This document shows positions 13,385-57,218 of a DNA stretch of 64,000 nt, one piece after another. Made by a program: the position numbers and the translations under genes. Origin of the DNA: Gammaproteobacteria bacterium (lineage in GTDB: Bacteria > Pseudomonadota > Gammaproteobacteria > Steroidobacterales > Steroidobacteraceae); the NCBI GenBank assembly GCA_025350055.1, contig JANXYK010000066.1:62001-126000 (forward strand), written 5' to 3'. Positions within the stretch are counted from its first letter, which is position 1; every line of letters starts with the position of its first letter. Below the pieces are notes generated by a model. The model did not search any database. It was given only the letters and a program-made list of their open reading frames with translations, and was not told the DNA's origin.

Positions 13385-14125
13385 TCAGTGGCGGGCGGCT
13401 GCAGTCTGCGCCCGCTGGATCAGGTAGGCACGAATGTCCCGGATGTCCTCGCTGCCGACAATGGCTTTGAAGCCGATCATGCCTTCACTGCTGAGGGCAA
13501 CGTCGTCGACTACTGTACACCAGAATTCGTCGTTGGCGAGTGCGGCGCTGAAGCGCAGGTCGGGCACGACGCCACGGGCAATCGCGGCATCGCTGTGGCA
13601 ACTGTTGCAATCGCGCGCATAGAGCCTGACGCCGCGGGCTGCCTGTTGTGCATCCACCGGGGTCGTGGGCGCTGGTGCGGGCAGCGCGTCATGGGCGTCG
13701 AGTGCAAACACGAGCAGCCGGCTGCGATTGACCGGGTGCCCGGATTTGAACGACAGCTCGCCGGCCACCAGTGGGTACACGCCGCCCCAGCCCACCATCA
13801 CCGCCACATACTGGCGGCCGTCGATGCTGTAAGTCATCGGCGCGGCCAGCACGCCGCTCTGCACCGCGTAACTCCACAGCTTGCGGCCATCACGCGCATG
13901 GAAGGCCTGCAGTTCGCCGGTCGCGGTACCCTGGAATACGAGGTCGCCTGCCGTAGCCAACAGACCACCATTCCACGGGCCCTTGTGCTGCACACGCCAG
14001 CGCTCGCGCCGCGTTGCCGGATCTCAGGCGCTGAGATAGCGCTTGAGCGTGGCCATGTCCAGCTCGTTGTTCATGCCGACCGGTTGACGCTTGAACGCGG
14101 GATCGTGCAGGTAGGGCTGGCCGTG
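13385..14125 (-). pseudogene. 3' remnant of a PQQ-dependent alcohol dehydrogenase with an in-frame stop
   Basis: The reading frame gives GQPYLHDPAF and MNNELDMATLKRYLSA, then TGA (14026-14024), then DPATRRERWRV, GPWNGGLLATAGDLVFQG and a C-terminal heme site CNSCH. In the complete paralogue at 17432-19576 the matching stretch is HLAAWDPVARKEVWRAELG, so TGA replaces the tryptophan codon TGG. Everything 5' of about codon 480 is missing; near 14110 the sequence changes into a plus-strand transporter fragment. A 202-residue product starting at 13993 could still be made but would lack most of the propeller. Confidence 0.85.
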
Positions 14126-14299
14126 GCGATCAATACCACGCTCTCGGCCATCGCGCCCAAGGTGGCGGGGCGCCTGTACGATCACGGCGTCGGTTACGGT
14201 GGCACCTTCTATTTCCTGGCGGGCTGGTGCTTCCTGGGCGCCGTGGTGCTGTTCCTGTTGCGCCCGCCGCCGCCGCGTCAAAAATTGGCGCTGCGCTAG
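14112..14299 (+). pseudogene. C-terminal fragment of an MFS-like transporter
   Basis: The plus strand reads VGLAVAINTTLSAIAPKVAG, then GGTFYFLAGWCFLGAVVLFL and RPPPPRQKLALR before TAG at 14297-14299. This looks like the last two membrane helices and cytoplasmic tail of a major-facilitator protein. No 5' part exists: upstream the sequence belongs to the opposite-strand quinoprotein remnant. The 3' end overlaps the stop of the aldehyde dehydrogenase gene by 4 bases, the kind of tight convergent packing expected of the original gene. Confidence 0.55.
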
Positions 14300-19593: not shown

Positions 19594-20265
19594 TTACACC
19601 AGGATTTTGCGGCCCGAGTCGACGGTGGTCTTGTCCTTGTTGCCGATGTCGCCGGCCTCGGGCACGGCGCGGCCGCGCTGCACGGCGGAGCGCGCACCCA
19701 CCAGCGCGAGCCAGCGCGCCAGCTGCGGCAGGCCATCGATGTCCACGCCCGACCAGGCGTGGCCGTGGATCCATGACCAGTGCGCAATGTCGGCAATCGA
19801 GTACTCGCTGCCCGCGACGTACTCATTCGCGCCCAGTTGCCGCTCGAGCACTTCGAACAGCCGTCGCACTTCGCGCTGGTAGCGGTCGATCGCGTAGGGA
19901 ATCTTTTCCGGCGCGTAGCGGAAGAACACGTTTGCCTGCCCCATCATCGGGCCGACGCCCGCCATCTGGAACATCAGCCACTGGATCACGCGCGAGCGGC
20001 CCTTGACGTCGCTGGGCATCAGTTGGCCGCTGCGCTCGGCCAGATAGATCAGGATTGCGCCCGACTCGAAGATCGCAAAATCGCCGTTGTCGCGATCGAC
20101 AATAGTCGGAATGCGCCCGTTCGGATTGATCTTCAAGTACCCCTCGGCCTTTTGTTCCTGTTTCGAGAGCGCGATCGGGTGCACGGTGTAGGGCAGGCCC
20201 ATTTCCTCGAGCGCAATCGAGATCTTCCAGCCGTTGGGTGTGGCGGAGGTGTACAGGTCGATCAT
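19594..20265 (-). CDS. Nu-class glutathione S-transferase / disulfide-bond oxidoreductase (YfcG-like)
   Basis: 223 residues. The thioredoxin-like domain begins [20 protein letters not shown] and includes [11 protein letters not shown] and [12 protein letters not shown], the glutathione-binding residues of the YfcG/YghU group; the helical domain shows [20 protein letters not shown]. These enzymes reduce disulfides or peroxides, or conjugate glutathione, in the cytoplasm. GAGGA precedes ATG 20265. The gene is divergent from an SDR. The last ~25 residues (after GRAVPE) are more polar than usual. Confidence 0.92.
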
Positions 20266-20419: not shown

Positions 20420-21349
20420 ATGGACAAGGTAGCAGGCAAGGTGGCATTCATCAACGGTGCCGCCAGCGGCATGGGCCTGGGCATGGCGCAGGTGTTCTCC
20501 AGCCACGGCATGAAAGTGGAGATCGCCGACCTGAGGCGCGAAGCCATCGAGCGCGCAATCGCCAGTTTTCCGGCAGCCAATCCCGGCGTGCTGGGCGTGG
20601 AGCTGGATGTCGCCGACCGCGCCGCCTATGCGCGCGCCGCCGCCGAGGCGGTGCGCGCCTTCGGCGCCATCCATGTGCTGGTGAACAACGCCGGCATTGG
20701 CATCATCGGCCCATTGCTCGAGGCCACCTATGCCGACTGGGACTGGGGTCTGTCGGTGAACCTGGGTGGCGTGATCAATGGCATCCAGACCGTGGTGCCA
20801 CTGATCCGCTCGCACGGCGAGGGCGGGCACGTGGTGCCCACCTCCTCGATGAGCGGCATTTTCTGCGCGAGTACCGCTGGCATTTACACCACCGCCAAGT
20901 ACGCGGTAGTCGGCCTGATGGAATCGCTCCACAGTGAGCTCCAGCCGCACAACATTGGTGTCTCCGCTTTCTGCCCGGGCTTGGTGAGCACCAACATCGG
21001 CGAGACCGAGAGCATGCGCCCCGCCGAGTTCCGCAACTCGAGCTACGGCAACGCCGCGCCCGAGCGCGCGAATTTCTTGCGCGAGCACATCTTCCCGCAT
21101 GGCATGTCGCCGCTGGAAGTGGGTGAGCGCGTGCTCAAGGGAATCGTGAACAACGACCTGTGGATCCTGACGCATCCTGAATACAAGGCCGGTGCGCAGG
21201 AGCGCTTCGAGGCAATACTGGAAGCATTCCCGATCGAGGGCCCGCCGCCCCCTAAGCGCGTGGCGGCCGAGGCCATGGTGACGCGCAATCCGCTGTTCGC
21301 GCTCGAACGCGATCGGCTGCGCGCACGCCGCGCGCAGCAACAACGCTAG
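20420..21349 (+). CDS. SDR family dehydrogenase, LigD/LigN-like branch
   Basis: 309 residues from ATG 20420 (MDKVAGKVAF). The cofactor motif is FINGAASGMGLGMA, the structural motif NNAG, and the catalytic set is Ser in PTSSMSG with Y-T-T-A-K. The length and the long C-terminal region (HIFPHGMSPLEVGERVLKGI) fit the group that includes the C-alpha dehydrogenases of lignin dimers, and it shares architecture with the LigD homologue at 56327. An alcohol-to-ketone oxidation is likely; the substrate is unproven. The 3' end overlaps the methyltransferase gene by 4 bases. Confidence 0.88.
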   Translation: MDKVAGKVAFINGAASGMGLGMAQVFSSHGMKVEIADLRREAIERAIASFPAANPGVLGVELDVADRAAYARAAAEAVRAFGAIHVLVNNAGIGIIGPLLEATYADWDWGLSVNLGGVINGIQTVVPLIRSHGEGGHVVPTSSMSGIFCASTAGIYTTAKYAVVGLMESLHSELQPHNIGVSAFCPGLVSTNIGETESMRPAEFRNSSYGNAAPERANFLREHIFPHGMSPLEVGERVLKGIVNNDLWILTHPEYKAGAQERFEAILEAFPIEGPPPPKRVAAEAMVTRNPLFALERDRLRARRAQQQR

Positions 21350-22431: not shown

Positions 22432-22848
22432 TTATGCGCTGAAATTGACTACCCGTTCGGCGTTGAGCTGAAAATATTTGCGCTTGTCCAGCGCTGTCAT
22501 CAGCAGGGCATCGCTGATTGCGACCACTTCGGGCACGAACTGGTAGGGGTAGTCCATGGCGTACATCACGCGATCAGCGCCCATCACCTGGTGGCACAGC
22601 ATGATCGGTGGTTCCGAGGCCATGCCCGCGCGGTGCATGTAGTTGATGCGAAATACCCAGAAGGGAAGCGCTTGGCCGCAATGGCCGAGCACGAACTGCA
22701 GCTTCGGAAAGCGATCGAACACGCCTTTGATGATGATGCGCAGCATGTGCATGCCGGTCTCGACCGCGAAGCCGTAGATCGAGGTAGTGGCTTTCGTAGG
22801 CCACGCCTTTCTCCGCCAGCGCCGGCATCGGCTTGCCGGAGTTGGCAT
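22432..22848 (-). pseudogene. LigW-like 5-carboxyvanillate decarboxylase remnant
   Basis: An amidohydrolase-fold fragment with SIYGFAVETGMHMLRIIIKG, VFDRFPKLQFVLGHCGQALP and VMGADRVMYAMDYPYQF, very close to the LigW/gamma-resorcylate decarboxylase family that removes the carboxyl group of 5-carboxyvanillate in biphenyl-lignin breakdown. The first ~200 residues, including the first metal ligands, are absent. The frame before SIYGF is nonsense, and about 35 residues are missing between NYMHRAGMAS and EPPIMLCHQ. It cannot be functional. It abuts the 3' end of a decayed AraC gene. Confidence 0.8.
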
Positions 22849-22891
22849 TGGGCTCCCATGCCGTTGTGTGTCGCGAGGCGTGTTCTGGCGA

Positions 22892-23687
22892 CTATCGGGG
22901 ATTGCTGAGCGTTTCGCGCCGGTATTCGCGCGGCGTCATGCCGTATTTCGAGCGGAACACCCGGCCGAACTGCGTCGGGCTGTTGAAGCCGTAGTCGAAG
23001 GCGATGGCAGTAACCGTGCGACCGCGCTGCGTCTCGGATACCAGTGCACGCGCGCAGGCATCGAGTCGCCGGCGTAATATGTAGCGCGCCACGGTTTCGT
23101 CCTGGTTGGAGAAGAGATGATGCAGGTAACGTGGCGTCATCTTACCAGCATCGGCAATGCGGGTTGGCGTCAGCTCCGGGTTGTGCAGGTGCGCCTCGAT
23201 GTAATTGATGATGCGCAGGCGGTGCGCGACGGCAGGCCACGCACACCGTGCCAGGCTTCCATCGGAATCGCGACCAGGCTCTCCGGGCAGGCGATGTGCC
23301 GATGCAGGTCAGCCTCGGGAATGCCGAGCACCAGCATGCGATTGGCCGCCGGGAACACCATCTCGTAGTGACGCGCGCTGTGACAGAGCGTGAAGTCGCC
23401 GGGCTTGAGCAGCGCTTCGCGCCCATCCTGGCGGTTGATGCTCTCGCCCTCGAGCTGCGGGTGCGCGCCACGTGGGCGCGCGAGTGGCGCACGATCTGCG
23501 CATCCGAGTACACCTCGGCGAGTGTCATGTCGCCGACATGCGTGGGCGCGATCGAACCATTGAAACTGCGGAGGTCAGCCGGATCAGACACCAGCGGCGA
23601 GAAACTCTCGGTCGCGCGCTCATTCCAGTAAGTGAGCTGGCGACGCGGGTCCAGACCCATGGTTGAAAAGGACTCTATGTGAGCCAT
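22892..23687 (-). pseudogene. Frameshifted AraC-family regulator
   Basis: One regulator read in three frames. The N-terminal AraC-binding-like part starts MAHIESFSTMGLDPRRQLTY and runs to about 23470. Another frame continues with REALLKPGDFTLCHSARHYE and MVFPAANRMLVLGIPEADLH. The C-terminal frame gives the HTH domain (MTPRYLHHLFSNQDETVARY; YGFNSPTQFGRVFRSKYGMT). At least two frame changes are needed, and the total is ~265 codons against ~310 expected. It is divergent from the aromatic-acid transporter, which it presumably once controlled. Confidence 0.85.
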
Positions 23688-23736
23688 TGTTGCATTGCCC
23701 CCGCTTGCGGGCCTAATCTCGCCCCGTCAATTGGTA

Positions 23737-25196: not shown

Positions 25197-26304
25197 CTGC
25201 TGATACAGACTTCGAGCAGCATCGGCACGCCGGCGCCGAAGACCTGCTGCAGCGCCGGGTCGAGGTCTGCCGCGCGTTCCACTCGCAGCGCACGCACGCC
25301 TTGGGCGCTGGCCCGTGCGCAGAAATCCAGGCCACCCAGCTGCACGCAGGGCAGGGAGGCAATGCCGAAGTGCTGGCCGAATTTCTGCAGCCCCTGGATG
25401 GCATACATCGCCGGACCATCACCGAGCAGTGCGATCACTTTGCGTTGCGGCTGCGCAAGCGCGACGCCTATGGCTGCCGGCAAGCCATGACCGAGACCGC
25501 CGCTGGCGCAGGTGTGGAAGCTGTCGCGCTCGATGATCGGCAGGTAGTCGTGCGGCTCCGCGCGACTGCTGGGCGCTTCCTCGACCAGGATACTGTGCGC
25601 AGGACGAACGGCCGCGATCTGTTGCATCAGATAGCGACCGTCCAGTACCTCTGCGGGGCGTTGCGGTGGCCGCGCCGCAATCGTGGGCGCAGTGCGCAGG
25701 GGAGTTGAAGAATTCGCGGCGGCCGTGGTCAGCGCCAGCAACTGTGCGACGCCGAGCTTCAGGTCAGTGACGATCGAAGTGCCCATCGGACACCAAGCTG
25801 CCACCGCAGCGTCATCCGTGAGTTGCAGCAGCTGCGCTCCCCGTGGAACGTGCGGTCCATCGCCTTCAACGTGATAGGTAAAGGCAGGCGCACCCAGTAC
25901 TAGCACCAGATCATTTCCAGTGAGCGCTTTGACAATGCCGCTGCGGTCCGCGGGCAGGAACCCGGCAAACAGTCGGTGATTCTCGGGAAAACTGTTGCGG
26001 GCCGACATCGGCGCGACCCACACCGCGGCATTGTGGCGCTCGGCCAGTGCGAGGGTCTCGTCCCAGGCCCGGTTGCGCGCCACCGATGCGCCGCCGCACC
26101 CAGCAACTGCGGATCGGCACCCACCCGATTGCTGACCACTCCTGGTCCCAGTCATCGACCGGAATCGACACGAAGGTCGGCCCACGCGGCGCCTGCATCG
26201 CCACGTAGTACGCGCGCGCGATCGCGGCGGGCACATCGGCCGCACGCTCGGGCTCGACGCTCCACTTGACGTAGGGCTTGGGCAGTTGCGCGGCCTGCTC
26301 GGAA
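25197..26304 (-). pseudogene. Benzoylformate decarboxylase-like (MdlC) remnant
   Basis: A ThDP enzyme fragment. One frame gives LPKPYVKWSVEPERAADVPA and PTFVSIPVDDWDQEW. After a frame change near 26120 another gives WDETLALAERHNAAVWVAPM, then FHTCASGGLGHGLPAAIGVA and VIALLGDGPAMYAIQGLQKF. The first ~115 residues are missing. About 25-30 residues are deleted after FGQHFGIA, removing the rest of the G-D-G...N-N diphosphate/metal motif, and no natural stop remains. The family decarboxylates benzoylformate to benzaldehyde, which would have fed the aromatic aldehyde dehydrogenase. Confidence 0.82.
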
Positions 26305-26590
26305 TACCGCGCAGGAACAGTGCCAGCAATGTGCCGACTACAGCGCACAGCGCCATGATCAACCCCGGGATGCCGGCCAGGAAGAAGGCCCAGCGCCAGC
26401 TCAAGGCCGTGGCGATCATGACCAGCACCAGCGGTGCGACAAAGGAGCCGCGCCGTGCAGCCGTGGATTCCACGGCCACCAGGGATTGTGCCACCGGCAG
26501 GAAAGGTCCCTCGGCCGCGCCCATCAGCAGGCGGGTAAGAAACAGGCTCGCGCACGAGCCAGTGGCGTACTCGCCAGGCATGAACGCATC
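26305..26590 (-). pseudogene. MFS transporter fragment
   Basis: The minus strand reads LFLTRLLMGAAEGPFLPVAQ, then RRGSFVAPLVLVMIATALSW and RWAFFLAGIPGLIMALCAVV, i.e. membrane helices 4-6 of a major-facilitator protein. About 15 residues usually found between the A-A-R-R-G and S-F-V-A-P blocks are missing. Both ends are cut: downstream it runs into the MdlC remnant, upstream into the plus-strand MetF remnant near 26600. The single long frame that joins it to MdlC is a product of deletion, not a real fusion protein. Confidence 0.7.
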
Positions 26591-27047: not shown

Positions 27048-27057
27048 TCTCAAGATC

Positions 27058-28312
<1,255 letters not shown>

Positions 28313-28334: not shown

Positions 28335-28721
28335 CAGCTGTGTGTGGTGCGAAGTGGGCCAGTATCCGCACTGCCCGCAGGTAGCCCTGCACGGCTACAA
28401 CCGCAGCAGCGGGGCCTCGGTGAATACACGGTGGTGCGCCGCTCGATGGCGCATCGATTGCCGCCGGGCATGAGTGCGCAACAGGGCGCGCTGATTGAAC
28501 CGCTGGCCGTGGCCTGGAATGCCGCCAATCGCTGCGGGCTGGAGTCCGGGCAGATTGTGGCCATCCATCATGCGCCGCTGGTGATCCCACCTTTCGAGAT
28601 GCTGATGCCGGAGGTGTATGTCACAGGTGTGGCCATGTCGGCGCATGCCTTTCCAAGCGTCATCGAGCGCCTGAAGCGCCAGGAGGGCTTGAAGATCCTG
28701 GTCGAGGTCGCTGCCCGCTAG
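28335..28721 (+). pseudogene. Zinc-type alcohol dehydrogenase remnant
   Basis: Pieces of a medium-chain dehydrogenase follow ligB. C-V-W-C-E-V-G-Q-Y-P-H-C resembles the structural-zinc loop, then after a frame change come EYTVVRRSMAHRLPPGMSAQ and GALIEPLAVAWNAANRCGLE. The text then jumps from S-G-Q to IVAIHHAPLVIPPFEMLMPE. The catalytic-domain start, about 70-100 residues of the NAD-binding domain and the C-terminus are lacking. It resembles the 2,3-butanediol/threonine dehydrogenase branch. Confidence 0.75.
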
Positions 28722-33633: not shown

Positions 33634-33717
33634 GGCCTTCCTCTACGGTGATTACTGAGTGTGCCAGAGTGCGACCCGGGCTACTATGCGAAGCATTGCC
33701 TGCCAGACGATGGCGCG

Positions 33718-34592
33718 ATGGAATCAGCCAGCTACAGCAATCGACCCCTGGTCGTGCGCGCGATGCGGCTCGAGCACTATGGCGAGCCGCTGGTAGCGCG
33801 CGAACTGGAATTGCCAGCGCCGGCAGCCTCGAAGCTGCGCATCGCGGTCAGCGCCTGCGCAGTGTGCCGCACCGATCTGCATGTGGTGGATGGCGAATTG
33901 CCTGATGCGGGCCTGCCGATGACTCCGGGCCACGAGATCGTAGGCCAGGTGATAGCACTGGGTGTACAGGTAACGCAGTTCCAGCTGGGCGATCGTGTGG
34001 GTGTGCCATGGCTGGGCTGGTCCTGCGGTCATTGCGAGAGCTGCCTGGCCGGAGCCGAGAATCTCTGCCCGCAGGCGCGCTTTACCGGTTACCAGCTCGA
34101 CGGAGGTTACGCGAGCGCAGTGAGTGCCGATGCGCGCTTCATGTTCAGGATTACGCCCGCTTATACCGATGAACAGGCGGCACCACTGATGTGCGCAGGT
34201 TTGATTGGCTTGAGGGCCTTGAAGGCCACCGGGCCGGCACGCAATCTGGGCCTGTACGGTTTTGGCGCAGCAGCGCATATCGTGGCGCAGATTGCCTAGT
34301 CGCGCGGCCAGCAGGTCTACGCCTTCGTGCGACCGGGAGACAGCAAGGGTGAGGCGGTTGCAATGTCCATGGGTGCCTGCTGGGCAGGGCCTTCCGATCA
34401 ATCCACGCCCTGGCCACTCGACGCCGCGATCATTTTTGCTCCCGCGGGCGCGCTGCCGAGGAATTTCTGGCCTTTGCGGCGCAGACGCCGCTGCGCACGA
34501 GCACCGTGCGCTACCCGCTGGCTGAGGCTAATCGCGCGCTGGCCGACCTGCGCAGTGGCGCGCTGTCGGGTGCGGCGGTACTGTTTCCCTGA
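33718..34592 (+). pseudogene. Zinc-dependent alcohol dehydrogenase broken by a stop and an internal deletion
   Basis: The first part is a good zinc ADH (SACAVCRTDLHVVDGELPDA; GWSCGHCESCLAGAENLCPQ; GLYGFGAAAHIVAQIA) but it ends at TAG 34297-34299. The same frame resumes with RGQQVYAFVRPGDSKGEAVA and PLDAAIIFAPAGAL. A different frame then gives AEEFLAFAAQTPLRTSTVRY and ANRALADLRSGALSGAAVLF before TGA 34590-34592. Thus one nonsense codon plus a deletion of about 45 residues with a frameshift. A 190-residue N-terminal product could be translated but lacks the cofactor domain. The family is the AdhA/AdhT-like alcohol dehydrogenases. Confidence 0.87.
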
Positions 34593-34611
34593 AATCATTG
34601 GAGCCCTGTTC

Positions 34612-43431: not shown

Positions 43432-43740
43432 TCACTCGCGCGCACGTTGATCCACCGGCTCAGCCGGAATCGGCATGTTGGATTCGGCGGCATGATCGGA
43501 ATAGTTCAGGCCAATCGCGATGAACTTGCCAATTCCCTTGACCGGTACGCCAATGCGCGGATTGCCGCTCACCGCAGGCAACTGGCACGGATCAAGCGCT
43601 GCGAGTCGCGCCAGTGCCTTCGGTGCGAGGGACTCAGGCGTCAGATCGGCAACATGAGTACTGAGATCGCGCAAGGTGCCGTTGCTATCCAGCAGCCCGG
43701 GTTTTTCCATATGCGGCGGGCCATAGCGCAGCAATTTCAT
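43432..43740 (-). pseudogene. N-terminal stump of a fumarylacetoacetate hydrolase family protein
   Basis: ATG 43740 begins MKLLRYGPPHMEKPGLLDSN, and the frame continues to GIGKFIAIGLNYSDHAAESN and PIPAEPVDQRARE, then stops. This is the first third of an FAH-family enzyme of ~280 residues; the metal-binding and catalytic core is missing and the last residues after P-A-E-P-V are foreign. The cut lies 1 base from the dehydratase stop. In sugar-acid pathways FAH proteins act as 2-keto-3-deoxy-acid dehydratases or hydrolases, so this step appears lost here. Confidence 0.8.
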
Positions 43741-43807: not shown

Positions 43808-45946
43808 ATGCGTTCACGAGTCATGGCCGTACTGCTGGGAGTGGGGGTTTATGCTGGCGCAACGCAGGCCGCGGATGAATACGCAAAACTGCCCGATTCG
43901 ATTGAGGTTACAGCCACGCGCATCCCCGAAGCCATCGACAATATTCCCGCCTCGATCACGGTAGTGAGCGGCGAACAGTTGCGGCGAGTGGGAGCCAATG
44001 ACTTGCGTACTGCGCTCACGTTGGTGGGCGGTGTCGAAGGCACGCCGGGCGGCGATGCCGGTCCGGCGGGTTCGGTGCCGGCGATCTGGGGGCTGCGCGA
44101 AGCCGATGCCTTTTTGCTGGTGGTGGACAATGTGCCCTGGGGTGGCGCCTTCAATCCAGCCACGCCCTCGGTGGATCTGACCGGCGTGGCGCGCATCGAA
44201 ATCCTGCGTGGCGCGGCGCCCGTGATGTTCGGGGCCACATCCTTCGTGGGTGTGATCCACGTGATCCATGAAGCGGCCGGTGATGCGCACGCGGGTATTG
44301 AGCTCAGTGGAAGTTCGCCTGGTGGTGGCGGCCTGACGTTCCAGGCCAATCTGCCGACGGTAGGCGGATACCGGCAATCGCTCAGCGCGAATCTCGAACG
44401 ACGTGGTTACAAGGACGACCGCAGTTCCTTCGAGCGTTACCACGCGCTCTATCGCGGAGCGCTGGACTTCTCCGGCATGCGCTTCCATGTGGATGGCGAT
44501 GTCAGCATCCTGCCGCAAAAGCCTTCGGGTGATTTGCTGCTGCGCGATGGCCCGGAACTGCATACCGAGCTGCCGATCAACGCCAACTTCAATCCAGCCG
44601 GGGCCAAGCTTGATCAGGATCGCTACCACCTGGCGATGGGCCTCGACGGCGGCAGCAAGGACAACAGCTGGGCGATTACACTGGCCGTGACGCGCACCAC
44701 CGATGACATCCTGCGCGGCTTCCTGCGTGGCGACGCCTTCAATGCGCCGCCCGATGCCGGGGTGGGTGATGGCCTGCAGGCCGATGGCTACTCGCAGTCG
44801 CGCGGCATCACCGATGTCTATTTTGATGCACACATCAGCCGCAGTTTCGGCCCGCAACTGAACCTGACCTACGGCATCGATCATATGCATGGTGACGGCA
44901 GCGAGAACGCCATCAACTTTGGCTATTGCATCGATCAGTCGGGCCACGAATACAGCTGCGATGGTGCGCGTCACGCGGATGAGATCGTGCAGTCGAGCGA
45001 CCAGCGCGAGTTCTCGGGTCTGTATGTGCAGATGGACTACAAGCCCAACGACCGCTTCGATGTATTGGGCGGCCTGCGCCTGAACAGCACCCACGAGAGC
45101 GCCAGCGGTCTGGCGATCAACAACACCGGGCCCGCTCCGGTGGTGGCCTTCGTGGGTTCTGAATCACAGCAGAACACCAAGCTCAGCGGTTTGCTGGGTG
45201 CCAGCTGGCACGCCTGGTCTTCCGGCAAGGATGCTCTGACGTTCTATGGCGACTACCGCAACAGCTTCAAGCCGCTGGCGATCGATTTTGGCCCTGAGGC
45301 CGAAGTGCAGATACTCAAGCCCGAGACGGCGGACAGCTATGAGCTGGGTGCGAAGCTGCGCCTGCTCGATGGCGCGCTGGATCTGGATTCCAGCGTGTTC
45401 CGCATGGATTTCCGCAACGGACTCACCTTCGCCGACAACGGCGCGGGCGCGTTCGTGCGCGCCAATGGCGGTGAGACGCGCTTCCAGGGCTTCGAGATCG
45501 AGGCCAAATACGCGCTCAACGCTTCCTTGCAGCTGCTGGCGCAGTTCGCCGATCACGATGCGAAGTTCCGAAGCTACATCAATAACAATGGCGCCAACGT
45601 GGCGGGTAATCGCGTTGAGATGTCACCGCGCACGGTGGCCGGGCTGGGTCTGATCTACAGCAGCCCTGCGGGTGCGGCCACTGCCGCAGTGATCGCCAAT
45701 GCGATCGGCAGCCGGATGCTCAACAAGAGCAACAGCATTGAGGCCGGTGGTTACACCACGGTCGATGCCAACCTGAGTTACCAGCTTGGTCGCTGCAGGC
45801 TGCGCCTCAGTGGCTACAACCTCACCGACCGGCGCGATCCGGTGGCCGAGAGTGAATTGCAGGGAGGCGTGACGGTCACTGGCACGGCCGGTTACTACCG
45901 CTTGCCCGGCCGCAGCCTGTCGCTCGGCATCCACGTGCCGCTGTAA
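43808..45946 (+). CDS. TonB-dependent outer-membrane receptor
   Basis: 712 residues: a signal peptide (MRSRVMAVLLGVGVYAGATQ, cleaved before ADEYA), a TonB-box-like DSIEVTATR, a plug with GVARIEILRGAAPVMFGATS, and a barrel ending SLSLGIHVPL with the N-L-T-D-R-R-D-P segment before it. AAGGAG stands eight bases upstream of ATG 43808. Its position between sugar-acid and sugar-hydrolase genes suggests a carbohydrate- or plant-derived substrate, but nothing in the sequence fixes it. Confidence 0.93.
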   Translation: MRSRVMAVLLGVGVYAGATQAADEYAKLPDSIEVTATRIPEAIDNIPASITVVSGEQLRRVGANDLRTALTLVGGVEGTPGGDAGPAGSVPAIWGLREADAFLLVVDNVPWGGAFNPATPSVDLTGVARIEILRGAAPVMFGATSFVGVIHVIHEAAGDAHAGIELSGSSPGGGGLTFQANLPTVGGYRQSLSANLERRGYKDDRSSFERYHALYRGALDFSGMRFHVDGDVSILPQKPSGDLLLRDGPELHTELPINANFNPAGAKLDQDRYHLAMGLDGGSKDNSWAITLAVTRTTDDILRGFLRGDAFNAPPDAGVGDGLQADGYSQSRGITDVYFDAHISRSFGPQLNLTYGIDHMHGDGSENAINFGYCIDQSGHEYSCDGARHADEIVQSSDQREFSGLYVQMDYKPNDRFDVLGGLRLNSTHESASGLAINNTGPAPVVAFVGSESQQNTKLSGLLGASWHAWSSGKDALTFYGDYRNSFKPLAIDFGPEAEVQILKPETADSYELGAKLRLLDGALDLDSSVFRMDFRNGLTFADNGAGAFVRANGGETRFQGFEIEAKYALNASLQLLAQFADHDAKFRSYINNNGANVAGNRVEMSPRTVAGLGLIYSSPAGAATAAVIANAIGSRMLNKSNSIEAGGYTTVDANLSYQLGRCRLRLSGYNLTDRRDPVAESELQGGVTVTGTAGYYRLPGRSLSLGIHVPL

Positions 45947-45950
45947 TGAT

Positions 45951-46193
45951 GTGCCCGTAAAGCATCCCGAGCGCCTCCAGCTCTATTCCCTTGCCATGCC
46001 CAACGGTGTCAAGGTCTCGATCATGCTCGAGGAGACGGGCCTGGCGGCCCGATACCAGACGCTGCAGTGGCTGATATTCCAGGTGGCTGGAGTCGGGCCG
46101 ATGTTCGGCCAGGTGGGTTTCTTCCACAAGTTTGCCGGCCGCGAATTCCTGTGGGAACAGCATGAAGGCCCACATGAAGATCGCAATGCATAG
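45951..46193 (+). pseudogene. Glutathione S-transferase remnant with an internal deletion
   Basis: From GTG 45951 the frame reads ERLQLYSLAMPNGVKVSIML and EETGLAARYQTLQWLIFQVA, then GVGPMFGQVGFFHKFAGREF. The first part is the opening of a YghU/YfcG-like GST; the second belongs to its helical domain, so about 65 residues (strands 2-4 of the thioredoxin fold) are missing in frame. After FAGREF the sequence changes and stops. It lacks the glutathione site and the C-terminus, so it is not functional. Confidence 0.78.
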
Positions 46194-51405: not shown

Positions 51406-53028
51406 ATGCGCGGATCGACAATGTACAGAGGGATTACCACGGTTGCCGGTGCGCTCGCGATGTTCCTGTGGATCGCGCCCGCCGTCGCCGCTGCTGCTGC
51501 CGGCGCTGCCTCCGCTGAGCCTGCGCTTCTGCATGCGACCCTGCATGCCGACCAACCGGGTCCGAAGATCGATCGCAATATCTACGGTCAGTTCGCCGAG
51601 CACCTGGGCCGCGGCATCTACGAAGGCCTCTGGGTAGGCGAGGACTCGAAGATCGCCAATACCCGCGGCTATCGCAACGACGTGCTGGCGGCGCTCAGGC
51701 ATATCCACGTGCCAGTGATCCGCTGGCCGGGCGGCTGCTTTGCCGATGACTACAACTGGCGTGATGGTATCGGTCCGCGCGCGCAGCGTCCGGTGCGTGT
51801 CAACTCGATCTGGGGTGGCGTGACGGAGTCCAATGCCTTTGGTACGCACGAGTTCCTGGAGTTCGCGGAGCTCGTCGGCGCGCGCAGCTACCTGAGTATT
51901 CCCGTGGGCGCTGGCACTCCGTTGGCGATGGAGCAGTGGCTGGAGTACATCCTCTCCGATTCGCAGTCGACGCTCGCGCAGGAGCGCCGGCGCAACGGGC
52001 GCGATGCACCGTTCAAGGTCGACTACCTCGGCGTCGGCAACGAAAGCTGGGGTTGCGGCGGCCAGATGCGGCCCGAACACTACGTGGATGAGTTTCGCGA
52101 CTACACCGCTTTCGTGCGGGCGCCAGCCGGGCAGATGCCGAAAATCGTCGCCTCGGGTGCTGCCGATGACAACTATCGATGGACCGAAGTGCTGATGGCT
52201 GATCCCGTGGTGACGCAGATGCCCCTGTGGGGTCACAGCACCGAGGCGATCAGCCTGCACTACTACAGCACGCCCAGTGATGACTGGAATCACAAGGGGT
52301 CAGCTACGGGGTTCACCGCGGAGGAGTGGGCGCGCACGCTCTCCAAGGCGCTGCACATGGACGAGCTGATCGCCAAACACAGCGCCATCATGGACAAGTA
52401 CGATCCGGAGCGGCGCATCGCGTTATTCGTGGACGAGTGGGGCGCCTGGTACGACCAGGAGCTCGGTTCCACGCCGGGTTTCCTGTACCAGCAGAACAGC
52501 CTGCGCGATGCGCTGGTGGCGGCAGTTACGCTGAACATCTTTCATGCCCACGCCGAGCGCGTACGCATGGCCAATATTGCGCAGATGATCAACGTGCTGC
52601 AGGCGATGATTCTCACCGACAAGGAAAAGATGGTCCTCACGCCGACCTATCATGTATTCGACATGTACCAGGTGTTCCAGGACGCGACGCGCCTGCCGCT
52701 GGAGATCGAGGCAGGCAGTTACGTCCTTGGCAAGCTGCAACTGCCGCAGCTCAGCGCGACCGCCGCGCGCGGCAGCGATGGCGTCGTGCATATCGCGCTC
52801 GCCAATCTCGATCCGCAGCACAGTGCCAGCCTGTCAATTGCAGTAGCAGGCCTGGCAGTGCATTCGGTGAATGGACGTGTGCTGACCAGCGCGGCGATGG
52901 ATGCGCACAATACTTTCGATGAGCCGCACGTACTCGAACCGGGCGCGTTCAACGGTGCCAGCTTGCATGGCTCGCAGCTCGTGGTCGGACTGCCGGCGAA
53001 GTCAGTGGTCGTGCTCGACTTGCACTAG
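51406..53028 (+). CDS. Secreted GH51 alpha-L-arabinofuranosidase
   Basis: 540 residues from ATG 51406, with GAGGA six bases upstream. After a signal peptide (about 1-37) comes the GH51 barrel: NIYGQFAEHLGRGIYEGLWV, the acid/base Glu213 in LGVGNESWGCGG and the nucleophile Glu344 in LFVDEWGAWYD, then the C-terminal beta-sandwich. It removes arabinose side chains from arabinoxylan or arabinan. With the sugar-acid dehydratase at 41.6 kb it suggests use of plant-wall arabinose. Export is notable, since many bacterial GH51 enzymes are cytoplasmic. Confidence 0.93.
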   Translation: MRGSTMYRGITTVAGALAMFLWIAPAVAAAAAGAASAEPALLHATLHADQPGPKIDRNIYGQFAEHLGRGIYEGLWVGEDSKIANTRGYRNDVLAALRHIHVPVIRWPGGCFADDYNWRDGIGPRAQRPVRVNSIWGGVTESNAFGTHEFLEFAELVGARSYLSIPVGAGTPLAMEQWLEYILSDSQSTLAQERRRNGRDAPFKVDYLGVGNESWGCGGQMRPEHYVDEFRDYTAFVRAPAGQMPKIVASGAADDNYRWTEVLMADPVVTQMPLWGHSTEAISLHYYSTPSDDWNHKGSATGFTAEEWARTLSKALHMDELIAKHSAIMDKYDPERRIALFVDEWGAWYDQELGSTPGFLYQQNSLRDALVAAVTLNIFHAHAERVRMANIAQMINVLQAMILTDKEKMVLTPTYHVFDMYQVFQDATRLPLEIEAGSYVLGKLQLPQLSATAARGSDGVVHIALANLDPQHSASLSIAVAGLAVHSVNGRVLTSAAMDAHNTFDEPHVLEPGAFNGASLHGSQLVVGLPAKSVVVLDLH

Positions 53029-53828
53029 AGCGGCAGTTCGATAATGGCCTTCACGGTCCAGCGGTCGGCGGCCGACGTCAGGCCGTAGCCGACCGCCAAA
53101 TTCAATTCGACCTTCGAGCGATCGACGTCCACCGCCGCAAACAGGCGATGGTCCTGCGGCGATGAGCGGAGCCTGTTGTTGAGGCGACCCAGTTCACCGT
53201 AGTACTCGGCCCCGAGCATGATGCCGCGCGCCACTTCGTGACCGGCTTTGAGACCGAAGCTGGCATCGGGCGTGCCCGAGCGGTCCGGCCCGCCGAAACC
53301 CCATTCGAACACGGGATTCAGCGCCAGTACCCAGTTCTTGCCACGTTGCCCCAGCATGATGCGCAGCTCGGCACCCGACTGGGCCTTATCGAATTTCTGC
53401 TGTACCCGCGAGAGCTCCAGGTTGGCGCCTGCAAAGGTGCCACCTTCAAGGCCGTCGGCATGCAGGCCCATCCACTTCAGGCGCAGCTTGGCACCGGCCG
53501 CATAGGGGTGGCCGTCGGCATCGGTGGCGAACGGGAGGTAGAGCCCGGCCTCCCAATCGCGGGACAGTCCCCAGGAAAACTCCGGAGTCACCCGCAGGCC
53601 ATGGTAAGGCGTGATTTCGCCCGGGTAGTCTGGCGTCGAGCGGCCGCTGGGCGTGGTGTTGATGTGCAGCTCGAGCCCGAAATCCCCGGGGCGATCGATG
53701 TCGTCCAGGTAGACCTGGATTTCATCCTGCAGTGATGCCCGCGCTGGTGAGGAGGCCAGCAGGCTGCAGACCGCTACGGTGGCGGCAGTGATGCTGCCTG
53801 TCAAAGCTACGTGCGATGGTGTTGCCAT
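53025..53828 (-). CDS. Predicted outer-membrane beta-barrel protein
   Basis: 267 residues with a signal peptide (VCSLLASSPARAS) and repeated amphipathic strands (GLRVTPEFSWGLSRDWEAGL; AGAKLRLKWMGLHADGLEGG; WVLALNPVFEWGFGG) ending in the C-terminal strand VKAIIELPL. No enzyme motif is visible. It looks like a small porin-like or MetA/transporter-like barrel. Its stop overlaps the GH51 stop by 4 bases (convergent), and it is divergent from the glycosidase at 53.8 kb. Confidence 0.7.
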   Translation of the reverse strand: MATPSHVALTGSITAATVAVCSLLASSPARASLQDEIQVYLDDIDRPGDFGLELHINTTPSGRSTPDYPGEITPYHGLRVTPEFSWGLSRDWEAGLYLPFATDADGHPYAAGAKLRLKWMGLHADGLEGGTFAGANLELSRVQQKFDKAQSGAELRIMLGQRGKNWVLALNPVFEWGFGGPDRSGTPDASFGLKAGHEVARGIMLGAEYYGELGRLNNRLRSSPQDHRLFAAVDVDRSKVELNLAVGYGLTSAADRWTVKAIIELPL

Positions 53829-53845
53829 GCCTTATTCTAACGGAA

Positions 53846-55540
53846 ATGCCGCGCCCCATGACCCCGCCATTGCTGCTGTCTGTACTCGTTCTGGCTCTGG
53901 CGGCAGCACCGCTACGCGCAGCGGAGACCGAGCTCGGACAGTGCGCGGACTCCACGACGCCTGCGGACAGCTATTTCTACAAGAAGCACCACGAGCCAGC
54001 GCCACTGCCGCAGTACGAGCAGCTGCGCGCTCAATTGCCGGCGCCGATCCTCGATGAGCATCCGCCGTGGGTGGAAACCTACTGGAAGGCCTGGCAACTC
54101 GCGTTCACGAATTTCAATGAACCGGCGCCGGGCAGCGGCTTCGTATCGCAATTCATCGATGCCTCCTTCAACCAGAACATCTTCCTGTGGGACAGCAGCT
54201 TCATGAGCATGTTTGCCAACGTGGCGGCACCGCTGGTTCCGGGAATCTCCTCGCTCGACAACTTCTATGCCAGGCAGCACAGCGATGGCGAGATTGCGCG
54301 CGAGATTGTCCGCAAGAGTGGCGATGACTATGGGTATTGGGTCAACGGCGCCTGCCGACCCCTGTTCAGTCGCCTGGGTTGGCGTGATTTCTCGTGGAAC
54401 GGCCTGAGCAACCGTTTGCCTGTCACTTACCAGGGGCGCAGCGCGCCACTGCCGAACCCCGTGCTGACGCTGGATGCACTCAACAACCCGGTACTCGCCT
54501 GGGCGGAGCTGGAGAGCTACCGCTACACGGGCGACAAGGAGCGACTGCGGCAGGTGTGGGAACCCTTGCGTCACTACTACCTGGCGCTGCAGAAGTACCT
54601 GCAAAAGGGCAATGGCCTGTATCTCACCGACTGGGCCAGCATGGACAACTCGCAGCGCAATCCTTATCTGCAGGATGGCGGTACCGCGATCGATACTTCG
54701 GTGCAGATGGCACTGTTCGCAAGGCAGTTAGGCGAGCTGGCGCAAATCCTCGGCATACCAGACGCACAACGCTATCGTGATGAGGCCGACGCACTCGCGC
54801 GCACCATCAACCGGCAGATGTGGGATTCCGCGCGACACTTCTATTTCGATCTGACGCTGCACGGCGAGCGTGCACCGGTCAAGACCATTGCGGCCTACTG
54901 GAGCCTGATTGCGCGCGTCGCGTCGGCAGAGCAGGCGCGGGAACTCGTGGCCCAGCTGCGCGATCCGCGCACCTTTGGCAGACACAATGCCGTGCCCACG
55001 TTGGCCGCCGACGAATCGCAGTACGACCGCAACGGCGGCTACTGGAATGGATCGGTGTGGGCGCCCACCACGACGATGGTGATCCGCGGGCTTGAGAACT
55101 ATGGCTACGACGCGCTGGCACGTGAGCTGGCGCTGAATCATGTCGATCTCATCGCCCGCGTGTACCACAACACCGGCACCATCTGGGAAAACTACGCCCC
55201 CGAAGCAGCCGCTCCGGGCAAGCCCGCGCAAGCGGATTTCGTCGGCTGGAGTGGTATCGGGCCAATCCTGTACCTGCTCGAATATGGGGTAGGGCTCAAG
55301 CCGAACGCAGCAGCCAACGAGTTGTCATGGACGCTTGAGTCCGAAGGTCGTGTGGGCTGCGAGCATTACCGTTTCAACGGCCATGTGCTCTCCCTGGTGG
55401 CCCAACCTGCCAGCGGCGTGCTGCACCTGCGCCAATTGACAATCGACTCGGACGGTTCATTGAAATTGCTGGTGCATCACCGGGGGCGCACCAGGAATTT
55501 GCAGATCAACAAGGGCCGTCAGCAGTTCACGATCTGGTAA
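53846..55540 (+). CDS. Secreted MGH1/GH63-like glycoside hydrolase
   Basis: 564 residues from ATG 53846, signal peptide LLLSVLVLALAAAPLRAAE. An (alpha/alpha)6 barrel with FLWDSSFMSMFANVAAPLVP, YLTDWASMDNSQRNPY, YWNGSVWAPTTTMVIRGLEN and TGTIWENYAPEAAAPG, as in mannosylglycerate hydrolase and trehalase-like inverting enzymes; acidic residues in W-D-S-S, T-D-W-A-S-M-D-N and W-E-N-Y are candidates for catalysis. Substrate not certain: mannosylglycerate, trehalose-like or alpha-glucoside. Confidence 0.85.
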   Translation: MPRPMTPPLLLSVLVLALAAAPLRAAETELGQCADSTTPADSYFYKKHHEPAPLPQYEQLRAQLPAPILDEHPPWVETYWKAWQLAFTNFNEPAPGSGFVSQFIDASFNQNIFLWDSSFMSMFANVAAPLVPGISSLDNFYARQHSDGEIAREIVRKSGDDYGYWVNGACRPLFSRLGWRDFSWNGLSNRLPVTYQGRSAPLPNPVLTLDALNNPVLAWAELESYRYTGDKERLRQVWEPLRHYYLALQKYLQKGNGLYLTDWASMDNSQRNPYLQDGGTAIDTSVQMALFARQLGELAQILGIPDAQRYRDEADALARTINRQMWDSARHFYFDLTLHGERAPVKTIAAYWSLIARVASAEQARELVAQLRDPRTFGRHNAVPTLAADESQYDRNGGYWNGSVWAPTTTMVIRGLENYGYDALARELALNHVDLIARVYHNTGTIWENYAPEAAAPGKPAQADFVGWSGIGPILYLLEYGVGLKPNAAANELSWTLESEGRVGCEHYRFNGHVLSLVAQPASGVLHLRQLTIDSDGSLKLLVHHRGRTRNLQINKGRQQFTIW

Positions 55541-55608
55541 GCCTTTTACGGTGGCATTGCGCCGTCGCATTTCCCTGTAGTGTTAGTTGGCGGCCGCGCG
55601 CCAATTCC

Positions 55609-56316
55609 ATGAAGCCCTTGCTGGCGTTGTATGAGAAAGACCAGCCCTTCAAGTGGCAGCAGCTCAACCCGGCCAGGTTCGAGCATCACGAAGACTGGTT
55701 CAAAGCCATCAATCCTAACGGCCAGGTGCCGGCGCTGGTCGATGCGGGCAAGGTGATCACCGAGTCGACGGTGATCTGCGAATACCTGGAAGACCAGTAT
55801 CCCACTGCGGTTTCATTGCGCCCCGCCGATGCCTTTGACCGCGCGCAGATGCGCGTCTGGACCAAGTGGGTGGATGAATACTTCTGCTGGTGCCTGTCGA
55901 CGATCGGCTGGGAGCGCGTGATCAAGCCAATGGCCCGCGCGCTCTCGGACGCGGATTTCGAGGAACACGTCAGGAAGATCCCGATCCCGGAGCAGCAGAC
56001 CAAGTGGCGCAATGCGCGCAATGGTTTTCCGCAGGCCGTGCTCGATGAGGAGATGCGCAAGATCGGCGTGTCTTTCCGCAAGCTCGAGGCGCGGCTCGCG
56101 CAATGCACCTGGTTGGCCGGCGAGCAGTACACGCTCGCGGATATCTGCAACTACGCGATCGCGATCGATGCGCCCATGATCTTTCCTGAACTTGCCAATA
56201 CCCGCTATACGCCGCACCTGGTGGCCTGGCTCGAGCGCATGGATGCGCGGCCGGCAGTCAAGCGCATGATGGCCGATTGCAAACTGGAATTCACACCGCA
56301 GAAGGCTGCGGGCTGA
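55609..56316 (+). CDS. LigF-like beta-etherase (GST), N-terminally shortened
   Basis: 235 residues. NPNGQVPALVDAGKVITEST, VICEYLEDQYP, RVWTKWVDEYFCWCLSTIGW and PIPEQQTKWRNARNGFPQAV match the glutathione-dependent LigF beta-aryl-etherase of lignin catabolism. LigF begins with a beta strand and G-P-G-A-N-S before the S-x-K-P-L of helix 1; here the frame shows R-A-N-S-M-K-P-L but the preceding strand is absent, there is no upstream start, and ATG 55609 has no Shine-Dalgarno sequence. It may therefore be non-functional. The LigD homologue follows after 10 bases. It would cleave the beta-O-4 ether of a ketone lignin dimer. Confidence 0.8.
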   Translation: MKPLLALYEKDQPFKWQQLNPARFEHHEDWFKAINPNGQVPALVDAGKVITESTVICEYLEDQYPTAVSLRPADAFDRAQMRVWTKWVDEYFCWCLSTIGWERVIKPMARALSDADFEEHVRKIPIPEQQTKWRNARNGFPQAVLDEEMRKIGVSFRKLEARLAQCTWLAGEQYTLADICNYAIAIDAPMIFPELANTRYTPHLVAWLERMDARPAVKRMMADCKLEFTPQKAAG

Positions 56317-56326
56317 GGAAAATGCC

Positions 56327-57218
56327 ATGAAGAACTTCAGGGATCAGATTGCCTTCATCACTGGCGGCGCATCGGGTGCAGGCTTTGGCCAGGCTCAGGT
56401 CTTCGGTCGCGCAGGCGCTGGCGAAGCTAAAGGCCGAAGGGATTGTCGCGCACGGCATCCGGCTCGATATCACCGATCGCACCGCCTACGCCGCTGCCGC
56501 CGATGAAGTCGAGCGCGTGCATGGCGGTCCACCGACACTGCTGTTCAATACGGCTGGCGTCAACAGCTTCGGTCCGCTCGAGAATGCCACCTATGGCGAT
56601 TTCGATTGGCTGCTGGGCGTGAACCTCGGCGGCGTGGTCAATGGCATGGTGACCTTCGTGCCGCGCATGATTGCGGCCAAGCGCCCGGCCCATGTCGTGA
56701 CCACGGCGTCGGTGGGTGCATTCCTGCCAAGCAACATTGCTGCGCCGTACTCCGCCGCCAAGGCGGCAGTGGTCAGCCTGATGGAAGCCTACCGGCTGGC
56801 GCTCGCCAAGTACGATATCGGTGTGTCGGTGCGGTGTCCGGCGAATATCAAGTCGAACATCGCCGAAGCGACGCGCACGCGCACGCGCGATGCGCGCTTT
56901 GGCGCCACCGGCTTCATCGACAACGAGCAGTCGATCGCCTCGCTCCACAGCATCTACCGGCATGGCATGGAGCCGATGGAGCTCGCGGGCCACGTGAAGC
57001 GCGCGATCGAGGAGAACCAGCTCTACATCATTCCCTATCCCGAAACGCAGGCGCAGTTGCGCCAGCACTTCGATGCCATCGTTGCGGCCGTGCTGCCGAT
57101 GGAGGCCGACGCTGAAGTCGCCGCCAAGCGCGTGAAGGCGCTGCAGGACTGGATCGCCGGCGACGCCAAAGTGTTCATGCCGCCGCCACCTGCGGGCGCG
57201 ACGACCGACAAGCGCTGA
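56327..57218 (+). pseudogene. LigD-like C-alpha dehydrogenase with an N-terminal frameshift/deletion
   Basis: From ATG 56327: MKNFRDQIAFITGGASGAGF and GQAQVFGRAGA; after a frame change near 56410 the protein continues AQALAKLKAEGIVAHGIRLD and ends at 57218. NTAGVNSFGPLENATYGDFD, Y-S-A-A-K and NEQSIASLHSIYRHGMEP are those of LigD, which oxidises the benzylic alcohol of beta-aryl-ether lignin dimers before LigF acts. About 20 residues around the second strand (NAD specificity) are missing. A 289-residue product from ATG 56349 would lack the cofactor loop. Confidence 0.85.

Follow-up and report, generated by a model that had tools for sequence, protein, structure and literature searches.

A sphingomonad-type pair of lignin-dimer genes, ligF and ligD, was probably transferred into an unrelated gammaproteobacterium and then broken there by small deletions. 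The pair lies in the window, the 64,000-nucleotide stretch of DNA that was analysed, on contig 13 of a draft genome (76 contigs, 3.29 Mb, 96.34% complete). In the proposed course of events, ligF would have lost its start, ribosome site, and first strand in one lesion, by removal or replacement, and ligD would have lost 47 nt internally in another, leaving its nucleotide-binding loop and its body in different frames; the same type of damage would run through a larger aromatic-catabolism region, with a LigE-type etherase remaining intact at another place in the genome. The gene families are known ones, the host and the state being unusual, and the case is one of natural pathway decay, not a new system. 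Coordinates are collected in Table 1.

Table 1. Intact and damaged features of the window and of contig 63 of the same genome
Feature	Position	Strand	State	Basis
ligF1-type beta-etherase gene	55609..56316	+	5′ truncated	235-codon open body; 4xt0; start missing relative to relatives
Ala-Asn-Ser codons directly before ATG	55600..55608	+		In no frame that has a usual start codon
ligD 5′ piece, frame A	56327..56416	+		Holds glycine-rich loop TGGASGAGFG; frame stops at 56504
ligD body, frame B	56397..57218	+		4y98, E 1.7e-101; overlaps 5′ piece at deletion junction
GST of YghU/YfcG kind	19594..20265	-	Intact	4eci, E 6.1e-96; 5uun, E 3.3e-40; NF008731, 183 bits, below cut-off of 325
C-alpha-dehydrogenase-like SDR	20420..21349	+	Intact	4ya6, E 7.3e-69; 4y98, E 1.9e-62
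Amidohydrolase	22450..22782	-	C-terminal third	Abuts etherase remnant; 54% to residues 332-472 of 475, L153; Amidohydro_2
BaeA-like etherase	22775..22858	-	Remnant, 28 codons	92% to L144 (G015), 85% to L150 (G003)
AraC-family regulator	22916..23723	-	Three frames	Three pieces versus L153_16002_17081; HTH_18 in last piece
Benzoylformate-decarboxylase-like gene	25199..26339	-	Two frames, first 108 residues gone	NF005485, 327 bits versus cut-off of 493
ligA (27049-27456) and ligB (27398-28312), protocatechuate 4,5-dioxygenase	27049..28312	+	Intact	TIGR02792, 184.6 versus 108.6 bits; NF009903, 489.7 versus 317
Zinc dehydrogenase	28339..28709	+	Fragments in two frames, internal gap	42% coverage of 374-residue G003 protein
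GST	45942..46187	+	Remnant, two blocks; middle and end gone	4nax, residues 14-46 and 108-144
LigE-type beta-etherase	L134:14512-15327 (contig 63)		Intact	NF042997, 481.6 bits versus cut-off of 440; no internal stops

Identity and lesions of the ligF- and ligD-type genes

The identities that an earlier note on this DNA had assigned to the two genes were confirmed against solved structures. The GST is nearest to 4xt0, "Protein LigF" (E 5.7e-87, with the runner-up at 4.8e-23), and the SDR, searched as its long frame (56349-57218), is nearest to 4y98, "C alpha-dehydrogenase" (E 1.7e-101), followed by 4ya6 (1.8e-52), 3ioy (4.4e-49), and 4yae (2.3e-39). These three C-alpha-dehydrogenases, 4y98, 4ya6, and 4yae, are presumably LigD, LigO, and LigL, respectively, and the SDR is thus nearest to LigD, also falling into the LigD-type clade of the tree described below. 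Neither gene reaches a curated NCBIfam equivalog in a profile search. A LigE identity was ruled out for the GST (NF042997, 33 bits against a cut-off of 440), as was its fusion with the GH63-like gene upstream, which is in a different frame. The order F-D is as previously described, both genes being on the same strand and 10 nt apart, with GAGGAAA (a 4-nt core match to a ribosome site) preceding ATG 56327; from this strand, spacing, and motif, the pair looks like one unit.

The GST had been described as lacking its first beta strand and a ribosome site, and comparison with relatives bears this out. LigF1-type relatives open with MLxLYSFGPxANS, 13-14 residues ahead of the window ATG, and match the window thereafter, leaving ligF without a start, a ribosome site, and its first 13-14 codons. 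Position 55609 is the sole ATG, GTG, or TTG of the frame, none being present upstream back to the preceding stop, and the Asn-Ser codons precede this only usual start, with strand 1 and the active-site Ser13 falling outside the product. The core match to a ribosome site ahead of the ATG is 0 nt, compared to 4-7 nt in 84/84 relatives scored (the loci, among 91, that passed E 1e-60, with L008 and L075 representing one genome). No decayed ligF 5′ end was detected upstream, a free-end score of 13 being equalled by 261 of 500 shuffles and the anchored score by 56 of 150; unrelated sequence occupies its place. The body of the gene has two private changes at otherwise invariant columns (81 rows, one of which has four), as few as would be expected if the break were recent, and its end branch is long (0.43 in a 27-row tree), so that selection on it may have been relaxed for some time.

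For the SDR, the reported frame change holds and the reported loss of about 20 residues does not: the gap measures 47 nt, or about 16 codons, which are present in 7/7 aligned relatives and absent from the window. The missing stretch includes the second-strand codons, read IVIADIR in most relatives, and its absence shifts the frame between loop and body. Thus, the frame opened by ATG 56327, which carries TGGASGAGFGQAQVFGRAG, closes at 56504 after 59 codons, and the conserved body runs from about 56397 in another frame, so that the TGxxxGxG loop is in frame A and the YxxxK motif (YSAAK) is in frame B. TTG 56349, which opens the long SDR frame, has a 3-nt ribosome-site match. The direct repeat GCAGGC at the junction occurs in the window only; since aligned relatives do not have it on both sides, no deletion mechanism is claimed.

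The lesions are known as they stand in a single draft assembly of 76 contigs, and an assembly or sequencing error, with whole genes behind a contig that is wrong in these places, is the best-placed of the rival explanations, albeit an unlikely one. In ligD, 47 nt are cleanly missing, unlike in a one-base slip, the 5′ end of ligF is replaced by unrelated sequence, several neighboring genes also lack long pieces, and no second LigF- or LigD-type copy was found in this genome at the thresholds used, all of which argues for a correct assembly.

Descent of the pair

In trees of the LigF and LigD families, both genes fall among sphingomonad copies, in line with the suggestion of the earlier note that pathway genes had been transferred into a different lineage, the host being gammaproteobacterial and not a sphingomonad. 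In the LigF tree (27 rows hand-picked from 92, namely the window and 91 loci), the sister of the window copy is a group of 13 rows, of which 12 bear Sphingomonadales-type titles and the other is titled Pseudomonadota only; together they form a starred set of 14 (99/97) that was named after an earlier quick tree (support 92, not starred). Two copies from a sister genus of the same family (g2), L008 and L088, stand apart from the window and join a Caulobacteraceae row (96/96), and a single clade of the window with the sister genus is rejected (AU p 0.001). In the LigD tree (17 rows, duplicate genomes L112 and L113 left out), the window groups with G100, G101, G102, and G104, to which the sphingomonad loci L021, L022, L024, and L026 belong (starred five-row set, 100/99), and grouping with the sister genus is again rejected (AU p 0.007).

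G100 and G101 are near the window in both trees. The rows closest in LigF, L019 and L085, come from genomes (G098 and G113) with a LigD just 52-54% identical to that of the window, and G102 and G104, near in LigD, are in another LigF group or outside the LigF tree. Both trees thus point to a sphingomonad-like source, but they do not single out a donor. In the DNA covered at 80 named LigF loci, no SDR at least 50% identical to that of the window was found, the highest reaching 48%. Given the position of both genes among sphingomonad copies and the rejection of the sister-genus groupings, it is likely, on phylogenetic grounds, that ligF and ligD were acquired by transfer, with the present lineage presumably on the receiving side.

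Next in standing, and unlikely as well, is old inheritance within the family, whereby ligF and ligD, already present in an ancestor, were retained in the sister genus and disappeared from the present genus. Two g2 genomes, G015 (JOPF151, the genome of both L008 and L075) and G062 (JOPF132, locus L088), do carry open LigF1- and LigD-type genes 63-65% identical to those of the window, and only the present genome and three g2 genomes have a LigE-type gene that passes the cut-off (4/98 genomes, own included). However, the g2 copies, which are on separate contigs in G015, are not sister to those of the window, as the AU tests indicate, and in 14 genomes of the same genus as the host, several of them incomplete, a LigF query at E 1e-40 matched only two genes of one relative, G003 (45% and 35%), and a LigD query had no match at E 1e-50.

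Upstream of ligF, a GH51-type arabinofuranosidase and a GH63/MGH1-like hydrolase occupy 51406-55540. In a search of 40 genomes (own included), the GH63-like neighbor had no match at E 1e-60 outside its own genome, an M20 neighbor was matched in five genomes (own included), and no empty site for the ligF-ligD pair was found via these two neighbors.

Predicted products and the damaged aromatic-catabolism region

In intact form, LigD would oxidise a lignin dimer at its C-alpha alcohol and LigF would use glutathione to cleave the beta(S) ether; neither window product should work. The further proposal of altered short enzymes, i.e., shortened yet working proteins with new N-termini, is very improbable: both bodies are open, the SDR keeps YSAAK, and the GST keeps seven of the eight glutathione-contact residues named in PMC4777856 (Gln39 being His, as hand-mapped on the 4xt0 alignment), but the predicted GST would lack strand 1 and the Asn-Ser common to relatives, its gene has no ribosome site, replacement of Ser13 by Ala leaves <5% of LigF activity according to the same paper, and the predicted SDR would lack the glycine-rich nucleotide-binding loop.

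Transfer followed by breakage being preferred, the view that the pathway is now being lost applies to the ligF-ligD pair and to a BaeA-like etherase, and it does not extend to every step, because a LigE-type gene, a second C-alpha-dehydrogenase-like SDR, ligA, and ligB are intact. The LigE-type gene matches 4yam, "Beta-etherase" (E 3.3e-130), on which basis NF042997 was taken to represent the LigE type; by eye, it adjoins a cytochrome/PQQ-type dehydrogenase-like gene (L134:12338-14491).

Around the intact ligAB genes, the segment 22430-28720 is a dense cluster of broken aromatic-catabolism genes. Its etherase remnant corresponds to the beginning of the first member of a tandem GST pair in G015; the two members show 35% and 28% identity to the LigF of the window and, compared with figures in PMC6369299, suggest the BaeA label. 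Relative to the heterodimeric BaeAB beta-etherase of Novosphingobium, as presented in PMC6369299, the window retains only these 28 codons instead of a whole BaeA GST beside BaeB, and a LigF query gave no further BaeA- or BaeB-level match in the genome. DNA comparison on the amidohydrolase side of the junction at 22.8 kb found nothing. Contig 14 of G003 shares with the window two ALDHs (81%), a GST (63%), an MFS protein (61%), an aldo-keto reductase (71%), and LigA (66%); in contrast to the window, its BaeA-like and LigF-like genes are open frames, the latter (45% to that of the window) probably being nearer to the LigF2 type of PMC6369299.

Other incomplete genes were observed across the window. 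The two-block GST remnant directly follows a TonB-receptor-like gene. Positions 14114-14293 match the last 60 residues of a G003 protein of 431 residues (63%), and, on the opposite strand, 13406-14116 match a C-terminal part of a protein of 723 residues (43%). At 43453-43740, a G003 protein of 284 residues (63%) is represented by residues 1-96 only, and a zinc alcohol dehydrogenase at 33652-34600 seemingly has its tail in another frame. Outside the window, on contig 12, L204:5480-7270 matches an 888-residue G003 protein (77-79%) from which about 280 middle residues are gone with the frame kept, a deletion elsewhere in the same genome.

The frequency of broken genes was compared with that in 40 other stretches using 1307 reference proteins from 133 loci. 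The window gave 22 scored places (12 whole, 7 truncated, and 3 split), ligF itself being among the whole ones, since it has lost only a short piece. The controls gave 100, of which 10 at stretch ends were set aside and the other 90 comprised 81 whole, 8 truncated, and 1 split. Split or truncated genes are therefore in excess in the window (10/22 versus 9/90, Fisher p 0.0004), in a comparison whose references are rich in proteins around lig genes and whose window was picked for its damaged look; without two window rows judged to be reference artefacts (19597 and 27449), and with the control rows unpruned, the count is 8/22 (p 0.005). A first count with 256 G003 proteins gave 8 window and 14 control matches, which were too few. 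A codon-usage scan found 15 frame switches in the 64-kb window versus 57 in 352 kb of control, a slight excess in a measure that mixes breaks with normal overlaps, most switches probably being gene overlaps.

Relation to known systems and meaning of the decay

According to PMC7691349, Sphingobium sp. SYK-6 has the operon ligD-ligF-ligE-ligG, whereas ligDFE are scattered in Novosphingobium aromaticivorans DSM 12444. The window resembles the SYK-6 operon in having adjacent LigF- and LigD-type genes on one strand and differs from it in the order F-D, the lack of an adjoining ligE or ligG, the broken state of both genes, and the gammaproteobacterial host. No report of this gene pair was found in the open-licence literature.

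Tentatively, and as a rather doubtful extension of transfer and breakage, the lineage may have undergone a stereochemical pruning: having gathered enzymes for beta-O-4 dimers from sphingomonads, it may have lost the beta(S) arm (LigF and LigD) and the BaeA-like etherase while keeping the LigE-type beta(R) etherase and one C-alpha-dehydrogenase. If this were true, the lineage would now use only some of the lignin-dimer stereoisomers.

In the literature cited here, descriptions of the beta-O-4 route come mainly from sphingomonads. With its broken transferred pair and its intact LigE-type gene, the present genome forms, alongside the open copies of a sister genus, a natural series on how the pathway moves and which steps are lost first. 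The case also counsels caution, in that matches to ligF and ligD in metagenomes need not be working pathways.
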